64,000 bases of DNA from Salipaludibacillus neizhouensis. GTDB taxonomy: Bacteria > Bacillota > Bacilli > Bacillales > Salisediminibacteriaceae. The notes beneath the pieces are model-generated. The model searched no databases and was not told where the DNA came from. It saw nothing but the letters and a program-made list of their open reading frames with translations. Within the stretch, counting starts at the first letter, position 1; each line of letters starts with the position of its first letter. Where the stretch lies: assembly GCF_002886185.1 (NCBI RefSeq), contig NZ_KZ614147.1:903187-967186 (forward strand), read 5' to 3'. The translations under genes were made by a program, and so were the position numbers. Shown one piece after another: positions 10,271 through 16,362 of the stretch.

Positions 10271-10296
10271 GAAGCAGAGAACCGTCCCGAAGCTTC
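10271..10296 (-). repeat. REP-like unit, copy 3
   Basis: GAAGCAGAGAACCGTCCC then GAAGCTTC on the plus strand. With copy 2 it brackets the hairpin at 10071-10116 as an inverted pair. Confidence 0.75.
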
Positions 10297-10798: not shown

Positions 10799-10815
10799 AT
10801 ATCGGTAGGCGATAT
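10799..10815. promoter_or_regulatory. TATCG-N5-CGATA site 1
   Basis: ATATCG, spacer GTAGG, CGATAT. First of six sites with the same half-sites and a fixed 5-base spacer, all within 10.8-16.25 kb. Around it, 10.68-11.58 kb has no convincing gene but ten CGATAC/CGATAT words. Confidence 0.6.
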
Positions 10816-10968
10816 AGCTTTATAGATTGGTCCGAAAGGCTTCATATCACATAAGAATGTGAAATCGCCATGCGATATATCAAGTGCAACAAAATTATCG
10901 AGATAGCTATCGTATACCTAGACAATAATGGTATACTTAATAGACAATTAGTGAGGAATTACCTCATG

Positions 10969-10982
10969 ATTTCCCGGGAAAT
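10969..10982. repeat. Perfect 14-base palindrome
   Basis: ATTTCCCGGGAAAT is perfectly symmetric, and directly before it TGAGG/CCTCA (10952-10966) makes a short stem. Its function is unknown; it lies in the gene-poor stretch upstream of the HTH gene. Confidence 0.4.
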
Positions 10983-11110
10983 GTCGTTTTAGAAGGGCTC
11001 TAATTAGGTGGAATTGGGTGTAGTGCGCTTTTCTTTTTATGAAGTAACTCTCGTACCCATAGGGTCTTCTTCTATGTGTATCCCACAAATCATGGCCTCA
11101 GCTGTTCGAG

Positions 11111-11153
11111 GTTTTCCTGTATTGTATCGGTAGGCGATACAATACAGGAAAAC
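11111..11153. repeat. Perfect 19-bp inverted repeat with TATCG-N5-CGATA tip (site 2)
   Basis: The arm GTTTTCCTGTATTGTATCG (11111-11129) and its exact complement (11135-11153) enclose the 5-base spacer GTAGG. There is no T-run after it, so it is not an ordinary terminator. The tip is identical in form to site 1, while the outer arms differ between sites. Confidence 0.85.
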
Positions 11154-11236
11154 TAGCGCAAAGTGAGCGATATGTGAATGGGCATAGGTTTATCTGAGAG
11201 GGTGGCAATTGGCATACCTTCGTTCTAACCGTGATC

Positions 11237-11283
11237 GTAGCGTTACGCAATATGTACAAGTTTTTGGACGATACAATTTAGCG
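11237..11283 (+). pseudogene. Fragment of the DUF3967-like HTH gene
   Basis: GTAGCGTTACGCAATATG, then TTTTTGGACGATACA, follows the sequence of the intact gene around 11776-11812 (ATAGCGTTACGCGATACG, then CCTTTGGACGATACAG) at most positions. The frame is not maintained beyond it. It is a short decayed copy about 500 bases upstream of the intact gene. Confidence 0.6.
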
Positions 11284-11517
11284 TAGGACCTTCTGTAAAT
11301 AGAGGGAGTGGAAGAATCTATTGAAAGAGTAATTGCGATACATAGAATCCCACACATAGAAATTAATGGGCGATATACATAAGCGATATACATCTAAAAG
11401 AGATTACAATTTGAAGTCGCAGCAGGCGGCATGCATGGTGAAGAAAGCATGGGAAAGTGTAATAAAACAAAGCCATTTCAATAGATCGACTCTAGAAATG
11501 GATGGTCATGTTTATCA

Positions 11518-11532
11518 TATCGCGGGGCGATA
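11518..11532. promoter_or_regulatory. TATCG-N5-CGATA site 3
   Basis: TATCG, spacer CGGGG, CGATA, 62 bases before the start codon of the HTH gene, a position suited to autoregulation. Confidence 0.6.
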
Positions 11533-11593
11533 CACTAGCAATTTTCACCATAAAAAACCTAGATATTTATTAGATTAGTAAAGGAGAGACGAT

Positions 11594-12307
11594 ATGCGAC
11601 ATGATATACAACCAAATGAACGGTCTTTTTCTACAAAGGAAGTGGCAGAGAAAGTGGGGATTGCAACTCCCACGGTTCGAAAGTATGGCCAAATCCTAGA
11701 GCGAAACGGCTATGAATTTTTTAAAGATGCAGATCGGCGTATCTTTGTTCAATCAGACATCGAAGCACTTATAGCGTTACGCGATACGGACAGGCCTTTG
11801 GACGATACAGCAAAAGATCTTATGGAGCAACAAAAAGAAAGATTAGAAGACTCCAATCAAACATCCCCAGCTGTATCGGCACCCGATACATATGCTAATC
11901 TACCGAATGATCCCAACCAATTAAAAGAGTTCTTACAGTATCTAGCAAATGAACTGGCGGCGACTCGTGATATGAATAACCAACTGACAAACAGTATGTC
12001 TGAATTAAAAACAACGGTTTCCCGGCTTCAACAGGACCACCATGTGATCAGTTCTGTTATAGGGAATTCTGCACAAAAAACGAATGCTAAAATAGAAAAG
12101 TTAACGGAACAACAAAGAACCGAGTTCGATACATTGCTTGAACAAGAAAAACAAAAAAGTGAATTCTTACAAAAAGAATTACAAATGATGCGGGACGAAC
12201 AGCAAAGAGAATGGCGTTCACAAAACGAGTTTAATAAACGTTTAGAGGGTGCGGTACAAAAACCTAAAGGAGTTTTGGAGGGGCTATTTTCCAAACTGCG
12301 CAAATAG
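11594..12307 (+). CDS. RacA/DUF3967-like DNA-binding coiled-coil protein
   Basis: A 237-residue protein in three parts. An N-terminal MerR/RacA-type helix-turn-helix (about 10-65: STKEVAEKVGIATPTVRKYG, then RRIFVQSDIEAL) is followed by a polar linker. A coiled coil runs from about 105 to 215, rich in Gln, Glu and Lys. A short basic amphipathic tail, KPKGVLEGLFSKLRK, resembles the DUF3967 end. Such proteins occur on Bacillus plasmids and chromosomes; RacA anchors chromosomes, and the plasmid members are unproven but suspected in segregation or regulation. AAAGGAG precedes ATG 11594. The coding sequence contains one TATCG-N5-CGATA site (11874-11888), and others lie before and after it. Two decayed fragments of the gene flank it. 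Confidence 0.7.
   Translation: MRHDIQPNERSFSTKEVAEKVGIATPTVRKYGQILERNGYEFFKDADRRIFVQSDIEALIALRDTDRPLDDTAKDLMEQQKERLEDSNQTSPAVSAPDTYANLPNDPNQLKEFLQYLANELAATRDMNNQLTNSMSELKTTVSRLQQDHHVISSVIGNSAQKTNAKIEKLTEQQRTEFDTLLEQEKQKSEFLQKELQMMRDEQQREWRSQNEFNKRLEGAVQKPKGVLEGLFSKLRK
11874..11888. promoter_or_regulatory. TATCG-N5-CGATA site 4, inside the HTH gene
   Basis: TATCG, spacer GCACC, CGATA, encoding the Val-Ser-Ala-Pro-Asp region of the linker. The equivalent position in the decayed copy (16231-16245) keeps the site while the reading frame is lost. Confidence 0.55.
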
Positions 12308-12395
12308 GCTGGAATCATGGAAGTTTTCTGTTTTAAATTAACTCATCCTGAATGGGTGGAAGAATCGTTTGTTATAAACATAGTAATTAATAGAA

Positions 12396-12440
12396 AGCCG
12401 CCATGCGTGAAGAAGGTCACTTCGCGCATGGCGGCTGTTT
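12396..12440 (+). terminator. Terminator of the HTH gene
   Basis: AGCCGCCATGCG (12396-12407) pairs perfectly with CGCATGGCGGCT (12425-12436), followed by GTTTGTTT. The loop side again holds TGAAGAAGGTCACTTCG, the GTGAAG-family core. Confidence 0.8.
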
Positions 12441-12826
12441 GTTTATGGCTGTGTATAGTATAGAAATCTTCCTCGCTCTCATTAGTAAAAAAATATCGTT
12501 ACACAGATCGATAATGATAGAGTGTGAGGAATGATACTTATTAAACCAAAAGAATAGAGTGGAATCCAAGAAAATATAACTTTGCTGTAAATGGACGGGA
12601 GTAATATCTTTCCTTTTCAACGTTTATCGTAATTTAGTCATAATTTTTCTTATTCTGATAATAGTTTGATCATATTTTTCATTTACACTAAATTTGTACC
12701 TCACAAAGAGGGCAATGCAAAATGTTCAAAGGAGGTCGTTTTGAAGTTCCCCCAAAGAACTAAATAATCATTACTTATAAGGTTTGGGTGTAAAAAAAAT
12801 TACTTATTTTCAAGGAGGACTACAAA

Positions 12827-14488
12827 ATGGTAGTAAAACGTAATCTTAATACTGAAAAGAAAGTATCAAAACGACAGAGTCGAAAAGTACCGTTTGTGTT
12901 ATCAACGTCTATGTTAGCTGCAACATTTTTGGTTGCGGGAACAACGGTATCCGCAGATGAACATAATGGAGAAGATGTAAAACACGGTGAAATTGTATCT
13001 GAAGTGGCCCAAGCTCTTCCAGGCTCACCTGAAAAAGGGCAGATCATGAGTTCAATTGCTCAAGGCGATTATGAGCTAGCGAATGAAATTTTAAGTGACT
13101 TAATTGATGAAAGTGAAAATTTAGATGAAGAAGATTTTGAAGACTTAATTCCAGAAGACGGAACAGAAGATGGAGCAGCAGAACAAGACGCAACAGAAGA
13201 TGAAGCAGCAGAAGAAGACGCAACAGAAGATGAAGCAGCAGAAGAAGACGCAACAGAAGATGAAGCAGCAGAAGAAGACGCAACAGAAGATGAAGCAGCA
13301 GAAGAAGACGCAACAGAAGATGAAGCAGCAGAAGAAGACGGAACAGAAGATGGAGCAGCAGAAGAAGACGGAACAGAAGATGGAGCAGCAGAAGAAGACG
13401 GAACAGAAGATGGAGCAGCAGAAGAAGAAGCAACAGAAGATGAAGCAGAAGAAGAAGAAGGAACAGAAGATGAAGCAGTAGAAGAAGAAGGAACAGAAGA
13501 TGAAGCAGTAGAAGAAGAAGGAACAGAAGATGAAGCAGTAGAAGAAGAAGGAACAGAAGATGAAGCAGTAGAAGAAGAAGGAACAGAAGAAGAAGCAACA
13601 GAGGATGAAGGAACAGAAGAAGAAGCAACAGAGGATGAAGCAACAGAAGATGAAGCAGCAGAAGAAGAAGGAACAGAAGATGAAGCAGCAGAAGAAGAAG
13701 CAACAGAAGATGGAGCAGTAGAAGAAGAAGCACCAGAAGAAGAAGGAACAGAAGATGAAGCAGCAGAAGAAGAAGCAACAGAAGATGGAGCAGTAGAAGA
13801 AGAAGCAGCAGAAGAAGAAGCGACAGAAGAAGAAGTAGCAGAAGAAGAGGCAGCAGAAGAAGACGCAACAGAGGATGAAGTAGCAGAAGAAGAAGCACCA
13901 GAAGAAGAAGCGCTAGCAGAAACAGAGCAGCAATTAGATGCCCAACACGATGAAATTGTTGAGGAAATAACAGACCGTTATCAATCAATCTTTGATAGAA
14001 ATGAAGCACTATTAGATTATCAAGATCTCTATATAGAGGATCAATTGGTATCGATCGGTGTGATAGATGAAACGGAAGATGCAGAGGCTCTTGAAGAAGA
14101 AATTGCTCTAATCACTGAAGATGTAGAAGAGAATCTTGATGAAGGTGCAGATGGAAATAGTCAAGATATCCAAGCAGAAGGCAATGCAGAGGTTCAGGCT
14201 GGTGCAGAAGCTGAAGTCGTAACAAATGAAAATGGTGCAGTAGAATCTGACGAAACAACAGATGAGAATGCTACTGTTGCTGTAATTGACGCAGACGCTA
14301 ACGCAGACGCAGAAGCCAATACAGAAATTCAAGCTGATGAAGAAGCTGAATCAGACCAGCTAGTGGAAGGTGAAAATGATCAGCAGGTTCAGCAGGAAGG
14401 TTCTACGTTCGGACCTTTTCTACAGCTGACTAATGCTTATGAGAAAGTTAAGAACTCTTATACTAATTTCATCTCTTCATTGAAATAA
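12827..14488 (+). CDS. Secreted acidic decamer-repeat protein
   Basis: A 553-residue protein of unknown function. A signal peptide is likely: a basic N-terminus (KRQSRK), a hydrophobic stretch to about residue 40, and cleavage near VSA-DE. A helical segment follows (about 45-110), then about 250 residues (113-362) of near-perfect ten-residue units such as TEDEAAEEDA. A second helical segment (about 365-430) and an Asp/Asn/Ala-rich region follow. The C-terminus ends FGPFLQLTNAYEKVKNSY. There is no sortase motif. AAGGAGG lies 8 bases before the ATG. The extreme negative charge fits a protein exposed to high salt or alkaline pH. A strong terminator follows. An orphan response regulator is next, but there is no proof of a link. 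Confidence 0.8.
   Translation: MVVKRNLNTEKKVSKRQSRKVPFVLSTSMLAATFLVAGTTVSADEHNGEDVKHGEIVSEVAQALPGSPEKGQIMSSIAQGDYELANEILSDLIDESENLDEEDFEDLIPEDGTEDGAAEQDATEDEAAEEDATEDEAAEEDATEDEAAEEDATEDEAAEEDATEDEAAEEDGTEDGAAEEDGTEDGAAEEDGTEDGAAEEEATEDEAEEEEGTEDEAVEEEGTEDEAVEEEGTEDEAVEEEGTEDEAVEEEGTEEEATEDEGTEEEATEDEATEDEAAEEEGTEDEAAEEEATEDGAVEEEAPEEEGTEDEAAEEEATEDGAVEEEAAEEEATEEEVAEEEAAEEDATEDEVAEEEAPEEEALAETEQQLDAQHDEIVEEITDRYQSIFDRNEALLDYQDLYIEDQLVSIGVIDETEDAEALEEEIALITEDVEENLDEGADGNSQDIQAEGNAEVQAGAEAEVVTNENGAVESDETTDENATVAVIDADANADAEANTEIQADEEAESDQLVEGENDQQVQQEGSTFGPFLQLTNAYEKVKNSYTNFISSLK
13163..13912 (+). repeat. Coding tandem repeat, about 25 units of 30 bases
   Basis: Units of the type ACAGAAGATGAAGCAGCAG plus AAGAAGACGCA are nearly identical at the left end and drift toward the right, with variants GlyAla, Val and ProGlu. 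The near identity of the first blocks indicates recent unit duplication. The minus strand gives a long poly-Leu open frame that is an artefact. Confidence 0.95.
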
Positions 14489-14500
14489 CTGATATTGTAT

Positions 14501-14532
14501 AAGAACTCTGGTGAACATTCACCAGAGTTCTT
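14501..14532 (+). terminator. Terminator after the acidic repeat protein
   Basis: AAGAACTCTGGTGA (14501-14514) and TCACCAGAGTTCTT (14519-14532) form a perfect 14-bp stem with loop ACAT. The inner part again reads GTGAA/TTCAC. Confidence 0.85.
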
Positions 14533-14729
14533 ATCTGTAATAAGACAAACTTTATACTTTGACTTGAGCATAAAAGACCTAAAAAATTGATTGCTACGTG
14601 TTTTCTTAATGAATCTATCGTCTCTTGATAAGTGAATCAGGACAATGCTACTTTGAATAGAGGACTTAGTAAAAACTGGTTCCAAAACTTTTTAAACAAT
14701 TTTGTTAATTTACTAGAGGAGTGCGTAAT

Positions 14730-15422
14730 ATGTTTAAAGTTTTAGTCGCAGATGATGAAGATTCAATTCGTGAAATTTTAAAGTACTCTCTTAATAAGAA
14801 TGGTATGGAAGTATGTGAAGCGCGTACAGGTAAAGAAGTGTTAGAAAGCCTTCGATCCTTTTCGGCTGATTTTATCATTCTTGACATTATGATGCCTGAA
14901 ATGGATGGCTATGAAGTGTGCAGAGAGTTAAGAAAAACGTCCGAAGTCCCAATCCTTATGGTAACGGCTAAAGGAGAAGAGTACGATCGTGTTCTCGGTT
15001 TAGAATTAGGTGCAGATGATTATATGATCAAACCATTCAGTCCGAGAGAATTAATTGCACGTATGAAAGCAATCTACAGAAGAATAGATTCTGGACACCC
15101 TATCAAAGTTGAAAATGAGCAAGAAGCTTACACTAATGGGGATTTAAAAATACACATTAAACACCGTAAAGTCACTGTAAAAAAAGAAGTTATTATTTTT
15201 AAGCCAAGGGAATTTGATTTACTGGCCTATCTAGCCAAATCACCTGGACAAGTCTTCACAAGAGAAGCCCTGTTGCATCATGTGTGGGGGTATGACTTTA
15301 TTGGGGACATCCGTACGGTCGATGTGCATGTAAAAAAAATTCGTGAAAAACTTAAAGAGAAGAAATCTGATGTGTTGCAAACAGTATGGGGAGTGGGATA
15401 CAAATTTGAACCTAAGTTGTAA
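14730..15422 (+). CDS. OmpR/PhoB-family response regulator, orphan
   Basis: A 230-residue two-domain regulator. The receiver has DD at 8-9, phospho-acceptor Asp52 in FIILDIMMPEMDGYE, Thr in MVTAKGE and Lys in DDYMIKPFSPREL. The C-terminal winged helix includes FKPREFDLLAYLAKSPGQVFTRE, HVWGYDF, and the DVHVKKIREKL recognition helix, ending GVGYKFEPKL. I place the start at ATG 14730, 9 bases after GAGGAG; the in-frame GTG 14721 abuts the ribosome site. No histidine kinase gene follows or precedes, so its kinase must be elsewhere. It could control the acidic repeat gene upstream, but this is only a positional guess. Confidence 0.88.
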   Translation: MFKVLVADDEDSIREILKYSLNKNGMEVCEARTGKEVLESLRSFSADFIILDIMMPEMDGYEVCRELRKTSEVPILMVTAKGEEYDRVLGLELGADDYMIKPFSPRELIARMKAIYRRIDSGHPIKVENEQEAYTNGDLKIHIKHRKVTVKKEVIIFKPREFDLLAYLAKSPGQVFTREALLHHVWGYDFIGDIRTVDVHVKKIREKLKEKKSDVLQTVWGVGYKFEPKL

Positions 15423-15609
15423 GACGAGAGGAGGCACTGTTCCCCTGCTTCTTCTTACTAATAAGTATAATAAATATTTTTTTAGAATAAGTCATATACA
15501 ACGTTTTACCTCTCTATAATTAGGGAAAAGGAAAATACTACGTGAAAAATCTTTATTCCGCTTATATCGTACAGATTACTGGTCAAAGCAGAAAGGGTGA
15601 GGATATAAC

Positions 15610-15894
15610 ATGAGTAAAAAAAATGTTGCCCCAAAAAGTGCCATGGTCGTCAGAAACGAAGCAGGAAAAGGGATAGATGTCATTTCCGCAAAGATAATTG
15701 CACAAGCCCTTAAAAAAGGGGAAAATGTCTTCGAACTATTGGAAACGTTCTCAAACATGACTAGAGTGGATGATTCATTCATTGTAGGCGAGGAACCTCA
15801 AGAGGCTTCAGCCATATATCTTAATAAATTAAACAACTACAAATTTACTGTGAATCGATGCCGTAAAAATACGTTCTCTTTTTCACCTTGCTAA
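15610..15894 (+). CDS. Small protein of unknown function
   Basis: A 94-residue frame with a convincing GGGTGAGG site before ATG 15610. The first half (about 1-50) is basic then helical, with AKSAMVV-like and ISAKIIAQALKKGENVFELLE segments. The second half is mixed, and the last 15 residues (RCRKNTFSFSPC) look unlike a natural C-terminus. It may therefore be a truncated or frameshifted gene. I do not recognise the family. It is co-directional with the response regulator 187 bases upstream. Confidence 0.5.
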   Translation: MSKKNVAPKSAMVVRNEAGKGIDVISAKIIAQALKKGENVFELLETFSNMTRVDDSFIVGEEPQEASAIYLNKLNNYKFTVNRCRKNTFSFSPC

Positions 15895-16004
15895 TCCGGA
15901 ATTAACTAAACCAATACACATAGATGAAGCACTCACACTCTAAAGGAATAGGTTGGCTTATATAGCTGAATTAGTTTTACTTAGTGCGAACTCTCATACC
16001 TGAA

Positions 16005-16045
16005 GTTTTGCCTTTCGTATCGGCAGGCGATATGAAAGGCAAAAC
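16005..16045. repeat. 18-bp inverted repeat with TATCG-N5-CGATA tip (site 5)
   Basis: GTTTTGCCTTTCGTATCG (16005-16022) and CGATATGAAAGGCAAAAC (16028-16045) pair at 17 of 18 positions around the spacer GCAGG. The outer arms differ from the 11111-11153 repeat but the tip and spacer are the same. Confidence 0.8.
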
Positions 16046-16092
16046 CGACATAGAAGGAGCGATACGCAACGAGCGTATTAGAGACAGCTCAG

Positions 16093-16260
16093 TGTATCTT
16101 TGTTCAATCAGACATTGAAATACTTATAGCGTTAAGCGATATGGACAGATTTGATTAGGCGATACAGTGAAGGTCTTATAGAGCAAATAAGGAAGGCAAG
16201 AAGGCTCCAATCAAACGCGACTGTATCGTGTATCGTCACCCGATACAACGCGATTTACCA
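16093..16260 (+). pseudogene. Decayed copy of the DUF3967-like HTH gene (internal segment)
   Basis: GTATCTTTGTTCAATCAGAC is identical to the intact gene near 11740-11760. The similarity continues through TACTTATAGCGTTA, GATATGGACAG, TTATAGAGCAA and CTCCAATCAAAC to CCCGATACAACG. Small indels destroy the frame. It covers roughly codons 49-104 of the intact gene. It shows the gene or its segment duplicated and decayed 4 kb away, on the far side of the acidic-protein block. Confidence 0.85.
16231..16245. promoter_or_regulatory. TATCG-N5-CGATA site 6
   Basis: TATCG, spacer TCACC, CGATA inside the decayed gene copy. An extra GTATCG lies 7 bases before. Confidence 0.55.
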
Positions 16261-16336: not shown

Positions 16337-16362
16337 GAGACGCAGGGACGGTTCTCTGCTTC
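16337..16362 (+). repeat. REP-like unit, copy 4
   Basis: GAGACGCAGGGACGGTTCT followed by CTGCTTC. Apart from this, the decayed gene copy and the hairpin, 15.9-16.53 kb holds nothing recognisable. Confidence 0.8.

Follow-up and report, generated by a model that had tools for sequence, protein, structure and literature searches.

We asked why, in a 64,000-nucleotide stretch of Salipaludibacillus neizhouensis DNA (contig NZ_KZ614147.1; hereafter the window), a gene for a 237-amino-acid RacA/Par-like protein lies among a family of dyads of the form TATCG-N5-CGATA, in which two inverted arms are separated by exactly five bases. The answer that we favour, with modest confidence and from the anatomy of gene and sites, is that the gene probably encodes a chromosomal one-protein DNA tether, comparable to RacA, pSK1 Par and RocS, which sits within its own centromere-like array. 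An earlier note, made from the letters of the window, had placed six dyads at 10800, 11125, 11518, 11874, 16018 and 16231 and none elsewhere in the window; exact matching returned the same six. They are given here with the other features of the cluster:

10800..10814, + strand: upstream dyad TATCG-GTAGG-CGATA, exact pattern match
10969..10982, + strand: core of the Noc-binding site, ATTTCCCGGGAAAT, matched exactly; at up to two mismatches the window has no other
11125..11139, + strand: upstream dyad, tip of a hairpin with 19 of 19 pairs (11111-11153), found by pattern match and pairing
11238..11275, + strand: fragment of a decayed gene copy, 84% like 11772-11809
11518..11532, + strand: leader dyad TATCG-CGGGG-CGATA, with the start codon 76 bp further on
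11590..11595, + strand: CGATAT word on the start codon (CGATATG)
11594..12307, + strand: gene of the 237-amino-acid RacA/Par-like protein
11782..11787, + strand: CGATAC word in the coding sequence (R63-D64-T65), which codon choice preserves in relatives
11803..11808, + strand: CGATAC word in the coding sequence (D70-D71-T72), which codon choice preserves in relatives
11874..11888, + strand: dyad within the coding sequence
16018..16032, + strand: downstream dyad, tip of a hairpin with 17 of 18 pairs (16005-16045)
16080..16216, + strand: decayed partial gene copy (16080-16148 86% and 16186-16216 81% like the intact gene)
16231..16245, + strand: downstream dyad adjoining the decayed copy

Shuffled windows contained 0.08 dyads on average, and none of 100 shuffles reached six. 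Over the whole genome (5,511,086 bases) we counted nine dyads, six of which fall in the window cluster, and three matches to the pattern written backwards. Both long hairpins described in the earlier note were recovered, as was the local density of CGATAC and CGATAT: the word CGATAY, counted on both strands, occurs 14.6 times per kb in the cluster versus 1.0 per kb in the rest of the window. Part of this clustering is due to descent, as the pieces at 11238-11275 and 16080-16216 are decayed partial copies of the gene.

Do the sites follow the gene in other genomes? A scan of genome contigs gave 196 stretches encoding a relative, of which the best 80, all named as Bacillales, were taken. Around these 80 genes the N5 spacer was found 187 times, compared to two cases of N4, three of N6 and one in a mirrored control. 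Most of the dyads fall in the interval from -0.5 to +2 kb relative to the gene, with densities that peak at 1.7 per kb (-0.5 to 0 kb) and 1.5 per kb (+0.5 to 1 kb) and are near 0 beyond +2 kb. A dyad was present near the gene at 15 of 18 strong orthologue loci, at 71 of 76 named loci and at 106 of the 118 distinct loci that were left after the removal of two duplicates. Eleven distant relatives (L029-L039) had one dyad in total, indicating that the dyad belongs to the close family. Across genomes of the order, the consensus dyad TATCGNNNGGCGATA occurred in 75 of 95 with the protein versus 54 of 302 without it (odds ratio 17), at a mean of 3.15 versus 0.21 per genome, and 7 of the 302 protein-less genomes had two or more. 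This split is less absolute than that in a smaller first comparison, where the consensus dyad was found in 22 of 28 genomes with the protein and in 0 of 10 without. Unfiltered dyads are noisy, as G010, which has no protein, has six and the reversed control reaches six in G143. The linkage between protein and sites bears out the idea, put forward in the earlier note, of a self-contained system in which a RacA-like protein would bind private sites. The conserved feature is the dyad with its spacing and not a hairpin: when 162 dyads in the neighbourhood of the genes of 76 relatives were inspected, 130 had no pairing beyond the core and only one had at least four further pairs, so that long stems are the exception. 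We rejected a reading of the dyads as RNA hairpins because most have no longer stem and the leader dyad in relatives precedes a promoter-like stretch (promoters were judged by eye, and that of the window is poor).

The coding sequence gives strong evidence that codon choice within the gene preserves the CGATAY word. In 93 distinct genes, codon R63 is CGC in 87, while CGC makes up 5% of the arginine codons at other positions; GAT encodes D64 in 92 (63% elsewhere), ATA encodes I5 in 88 (39% elsewhere) and GAC encodes D70 in 80 (37% elsewhere). Decayed gene copies provide moderate evidence for selection on the word: 152 of 267 words were intact versus 5133 of 18049 other 6-mers, CGATAC was kept in 59% of cases versus 28% for the average 6-mer, and the best-kept 6-mer was GTATCG of the dyad (24 of 26). 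The loci L060, L067, L113 and L131, whose starts are truncated, were left out of the stem, leader-position, decayed-copy and codon analyses, and G069 and G007b were left out of the last two. In relatives the leader consists of a dyad at about -50 to -75 (to which the window dyad at 11518 corresponds), a TTGCAA-like box, a ribosome-binding site and CGATATG at the start codon; words within the gene lie near +8, +188, +209, +284 and +392, and up to 16 CGATAY words surround a single gene, many of them within the coding sequence. Up to three decayed copies, or none, follow the gene; each copy has a leader dyad of its own, and extra gene fragments were present in 32 of 101 sequences. The sequences show that the array grows as leader and gene are duplicated in tandem, and that the copies decay as genes yet retain the sites. 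The location of single words in gene copies accounts for most of their polarity.

What kind of protein would recognise these sites? The 237-residue protein is predicted to contain a winged helix (residues ~13-66), a helix (69-89), a linker, a coiled coil (107-222) and a basic C-terminal helix (225-236). In an alignment of 19 family members the mean column identity is 76%, the helix-turn-helix is nearly invariant and the basic tail is conserved (W..LFS.F.K-like, predicted helix). For an AlphaFold model built from the 19 sequences (predicted local distance difference test, pLDDT, 82; predicted template modelling score, pTM, 0.37), Foldseek ranked MerR proteins first (E value 0.0097) and matched the RacA-DNA structure 5i44_G at probability 1.00 with a root mean square deviation of 1.4 over 55 residues. 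The predicted model has a MerR-type winged helix followed by a coiled coil, as does RacA. Pfam and NCBIfam scans found no model at its cut-off: PF00376 (MerR) scored 14.8 bits against a cut-off of 28.2, and neither DUF3967 nor DUF536 was among the 15 Pfam families found for the window protein at E <= 1 (for 18 other family members, the first 25 of 50 Pfam families were considered). A sequence profile retrieved no related solved structure below E 0.01. The RacA likeness claimed earlier therefore stands as one of fold and layout, since none of the four NCBIfam RacA models matched at E <= 1, and the DUF3967 label has no support from Pfam for this protein; that annotation occurs only on some distant plasmid kin.

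We then asked where the gene and its sites lie on the chromosome. A dnaA position was found in 36 genomes, and the 27 with exact lengths were used for arm position. In 20 of these 27 the gene lay within the quarter of the arm nearest the origin (the origin-proximal quarter), although such counts are not independent because genomes of one genus share the place of the gene; counted by gene context, 9 of 14 were in this quarter (p 0.002), and the genus medians of gene position departed from uniform (p 0.002). Nine loci in eight named genomes were 160-485 kb from dnaA, save one at 1,211 kb (the same contig being assumed), and the window's gene is 495 kb from dnaA. Consensus dyads remote from the gene showed the same bias, with 26 of 27 in the origin-proximal quarter (13 genomes of 7 genera, several of the sites being homologous). 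Without the consensus filter, 28 of 51 remote dyads were in this quarter, compared to 12.75 expected (p 5e-6; 12 of 14 protein-bearing genomes). Several remote dyads lie in terminator-like hairpins or within long open reading frames. G019 and G026 have six remote consensus dyads each, 220-302 kb from dnaA; some of them sit in terminator-like hairpins of the form CCCCCG-dyad-CGGGGG, and no gene fragment was detected at them by tblastn at E 0.01. In the window's own genome a lone dyad (G000:C2:738681; L002, L185) is 319 kb from dnaA; it is followed by the leader piece CTTGCAAAT, and 277 bp off lies a Noc-like palindrome with one mismatch, so that this dyad is perhaps the relic of a lost copy.

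The module also carries a palindrome that resembles the binding site of Noc. In the window the palindrome is upstream of the gene, and the 16-bp palindrome TATTTCCCGGGAAATA, or a near form of it, is present there by sequence (consensus as given in the accessible text of PMC7383237). At one mismatch, 88 such palindromes were near genes versus 8 far from them, with 0-1 in controls; they were present near the gene in 86 of the 118 distinct loci, chiefly as ATTTCCCGAGAAAT (43) and AATTCCCGGGAAAT (34). In 92 loci the palindrome is downstream, and there it marks the end of the array: the density of CGATAY falls from 8.2 per kb before it to 0.64 per kb after it, and 185 dyads precede it while 4 lie in the 3 kb after it, although the palindrome tails are homologous and the counts thus represent conservation and not independent gains. 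Three TCNACAA repeats, 21 bp apart, lie around the palindrome in the downstream tails; they resemble Spo0A boxes. A one-mismatch palindrome was found at 5 of 20 remote-site loci, 0.3-9 kb from the dyad (two pairs being homologous), and no parS was found near the gene locus at 2 mismatches.

How could such a module work? We infer that dimers of the winged helix bind the TATCG-N5-CGATA dyads, whose half-sites are one helical turn apart, and bind single CGATAY half-sites more weakly. The coiled coil would oligomerise the protein and bridge sites, and the basic C-terminal helix, by analogy of layout with RacA, pSK1 Par and RocS, may target the complex to the membrane or a partner located there. 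The gene would be autoregulated via its leader dyad and start-codon word, and Noc would be loaded onto the same region through the Noc-site-like palindrome. The net effect may be that the origin domain is anchored or shaped, as the array and the remote dyads are mostly origin-proximal. The partition or anchoring role proposed in the earlier note thus gains support from the origin-proximal gene and remote sites and from the Noc-site-like palindrome. What the sequences show is that sites and protein are linked, that selection acts on codons and that there is a bias towards the origin; binding, bridging, contact with the membrane and the purpose of the system are deduced from these.

The nearest known systems are RacA, pSK1 Par, RocS and Noc with its binding sites. 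The RacA of Bacillus subtilis likewise has a MerR-type winged helix followed by a coiled coil, is chromosomal, belongs to Bacillales and has its sites concentrated near the origin (here the remote dyads, with exceptions in some genomes), but its site differs and here the gene lies within the main site cluster. The site cluster of pSK1 Par adjoins its own gene. RacA, pSK1 Par and RocS are grouped by their winged helix, coiled coil and C-terminal region in the available part of PMC11500499. Going by the same part of that source, the staphylococcal pSK1 Par is likewise one protein with a winged helix, a coiled coil and a C-terminal stretch, but is plasmid-borne and contains DUF536, unlike the window protein; RocS of Streptococcus pneumoniae has a winged helix, a coiled coil and a C-terminal amphipathic helix as membrane anchor, but it is from another order and belongs to the DUF536 family, and no private site array is mentioned there. 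RacA tethers centromere-like elements of the origin region to DivIVA (PMC6593407, as far as its text was accessible), and Noc recruits DNA to the membrane by way of chromosomal palindromes (PMC4331003, likewise in part). The Noc-binding-site-like palindrome is part of the module here, but Noc is a ParB-type protein unrelated to the 237-amino-acid protein, and its site would be at most accessory. An origin-domain tether is the best reading because the protein has the anatomy of RacA, pSK1 Par and RocS, and RacA and Noc bring their sites to DivIVA and to the membrane, respectively. A replacement of RacA was rejected, since RacA-like hits were found in 26 of 28 protein-bearing genomes, with which the family thus coexists, and in 6 of 10 without the protein, all of them below the curated cut-off and some on long open reading frames that are probably other MerR proteins.

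Several observations weigh against the origin-domain tether. Seven mapped genomes have the gene outside the origin-proximal quarter (G079 at 0.2506, G040, G380, G292, G219, G069 and G008), five of them with the gene at an arm fraction of 0.39-0.61 or beyond, and the remote sites of G019/G026 and of g18 are partly identical sites. The consensus dyad is missing in 20 of the 95 protein-bearing genomes and present in the 54 protein-less ones, and 32 of 118 loci have no Noc-like palindrome at one mismatch. Codon 3, which precedes the +8 word, is C-ending in only 43 of 93 genes, and CGATAC is only 32nd of 289 6-mers by retention in decayed copies. Foldseek gave no match at E <= 0.001 for the predicted model, and the hydrophobic moment of the C-terminal helix was 0.44 versus 0.33 (standard deviation 0.16) in shuffles, with only 3% exceeding the 95th percentile of their own shuffles. 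One could instead imagine an ordinary autoregulated MerR-like transcription factor, for which the dyads and words are operators, the extras leftovers of duplication and the remote dyads target promoters. That MerR proteins are the best fold matches, that in relatives the leader dyad is just ahead of a promoter-like stretch and the start codon carries a word, and that the downstream array consists largely of decayed copies would all suit a regulator; we nevertheless consider it rather unlikely, as the number of words per gene exceeds operator needs and codon choice preserves them, several remote dyads lie within long open reading frames or terminator-like hairpins, and the origin bias of the remote sites is unexpected for a regulon. 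Very improbable, in our judgement, is that there is no functional array and that the words were inherited in duplicated gene pieces and are meaningless outside the gene: the copies do resemble the gene, and some other 6-mers are better kept in them, but this would leave unexplained the synonymous codon bias for the word, the exact N5 spacing and the origin-near remote dyads with unrelated flanks.

The distribution of the family bears on another explanation, namely a transmissible selfish hitchhiker in which gene, array and palindrome tail move together and persist by tethering themselves to the segregating origin region. Of 397 genomes sampled from the order, 95 encode a close relative, and these fall in a patchy 21 of 135 genera (profile, E 1e-40); in a class-wide sample 8 of 398 genomes matched, every one within the order, and of 100 relatives' genomes 35 matched at E 0.001, about half of them strongly. 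The gene occupies 15 different contexts among 28 genomes, accompanied by its tail across these contexts, and in the gene tree named genera are intermixed and the four loci from the genus of the window do not come together. Distant kin occur on plasmids (15 records, weak matches), and the phage family phrog_3470, of unknown function, matches 19 of 19 family members. All this would suit a hitchhiker, but there is a single copy in 94 of the 95 protein-bearing genomes, several genera keep the gene at one conserved spot, and no recombinase or defined end was found by clustering of open reading frames and family scans of eight window open reading frames. With the settings used, neither phages nor viral contigs gave a match, and a viral origin was rejected on this ground. 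We thus regard the hitchhiker as distinctly unlikely. Two or three loci per genome were seen in Cytobacillus citreus, Bacillus sp. OV166 and Bacillus sp. B15-48. The gene contexts were grouped by a stricter rule, as single-link grouping had chained 73 of 101 loci together. No conserved partner gene emerged: the commonest neighbour family was present in 30 of about 100 loci, and an NTPase partner shared by more loci than that was not seen either, no genome-wide NTPase search having been made.

Between the gene and the downstream decayed copy, positions 12827-14488 hold a 553-amino-acid open reading frame that contains a long acidic repeat, built of 15/30-base units in tandem, and has no Pfam match at E <= 1, and 14721-15422 is an OmpR-type response regulator. 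At up to 3 mismatches, the dispersed repeat GGGACGGTTCTCTGCTTC has 12 copies in the window between 1368 and 39463, compared to 0 in shuffles; one inverted pair of it (10271-10288 and 16345-16362) brackets the whole dyad cluster.

The origin-domain tether may be taken further, and we do so tentatively: the locus could be a transmissible chromosomal centromere, in which a single gene serves as its own centromere, with sites in its promoter, start codon and codons, an array that grows by duplication and decay, and a connection to Noc. It would move between Bacillales chromosomes, end up in the origin domain, seed dyads there and act as a second tether beside RacA. The protein-site pair is apparently undescribed; our literature search, with most subscription papers outside its reach, found no description of the motif or the protein. 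The pair is widespread, as roughly one in four of the order's sampled genomes have it, and, its candidate sites and origin bias being known, it offers a directly testable system for the motor-free placing and anchoring of origins. If the reading is true, the gene of a DNA-binding protein would here supply the protein's binding array from its own coding sequence and decayed duplicates, and a RacA-like tether would be physically linked to nucleoid-occlusion sites.

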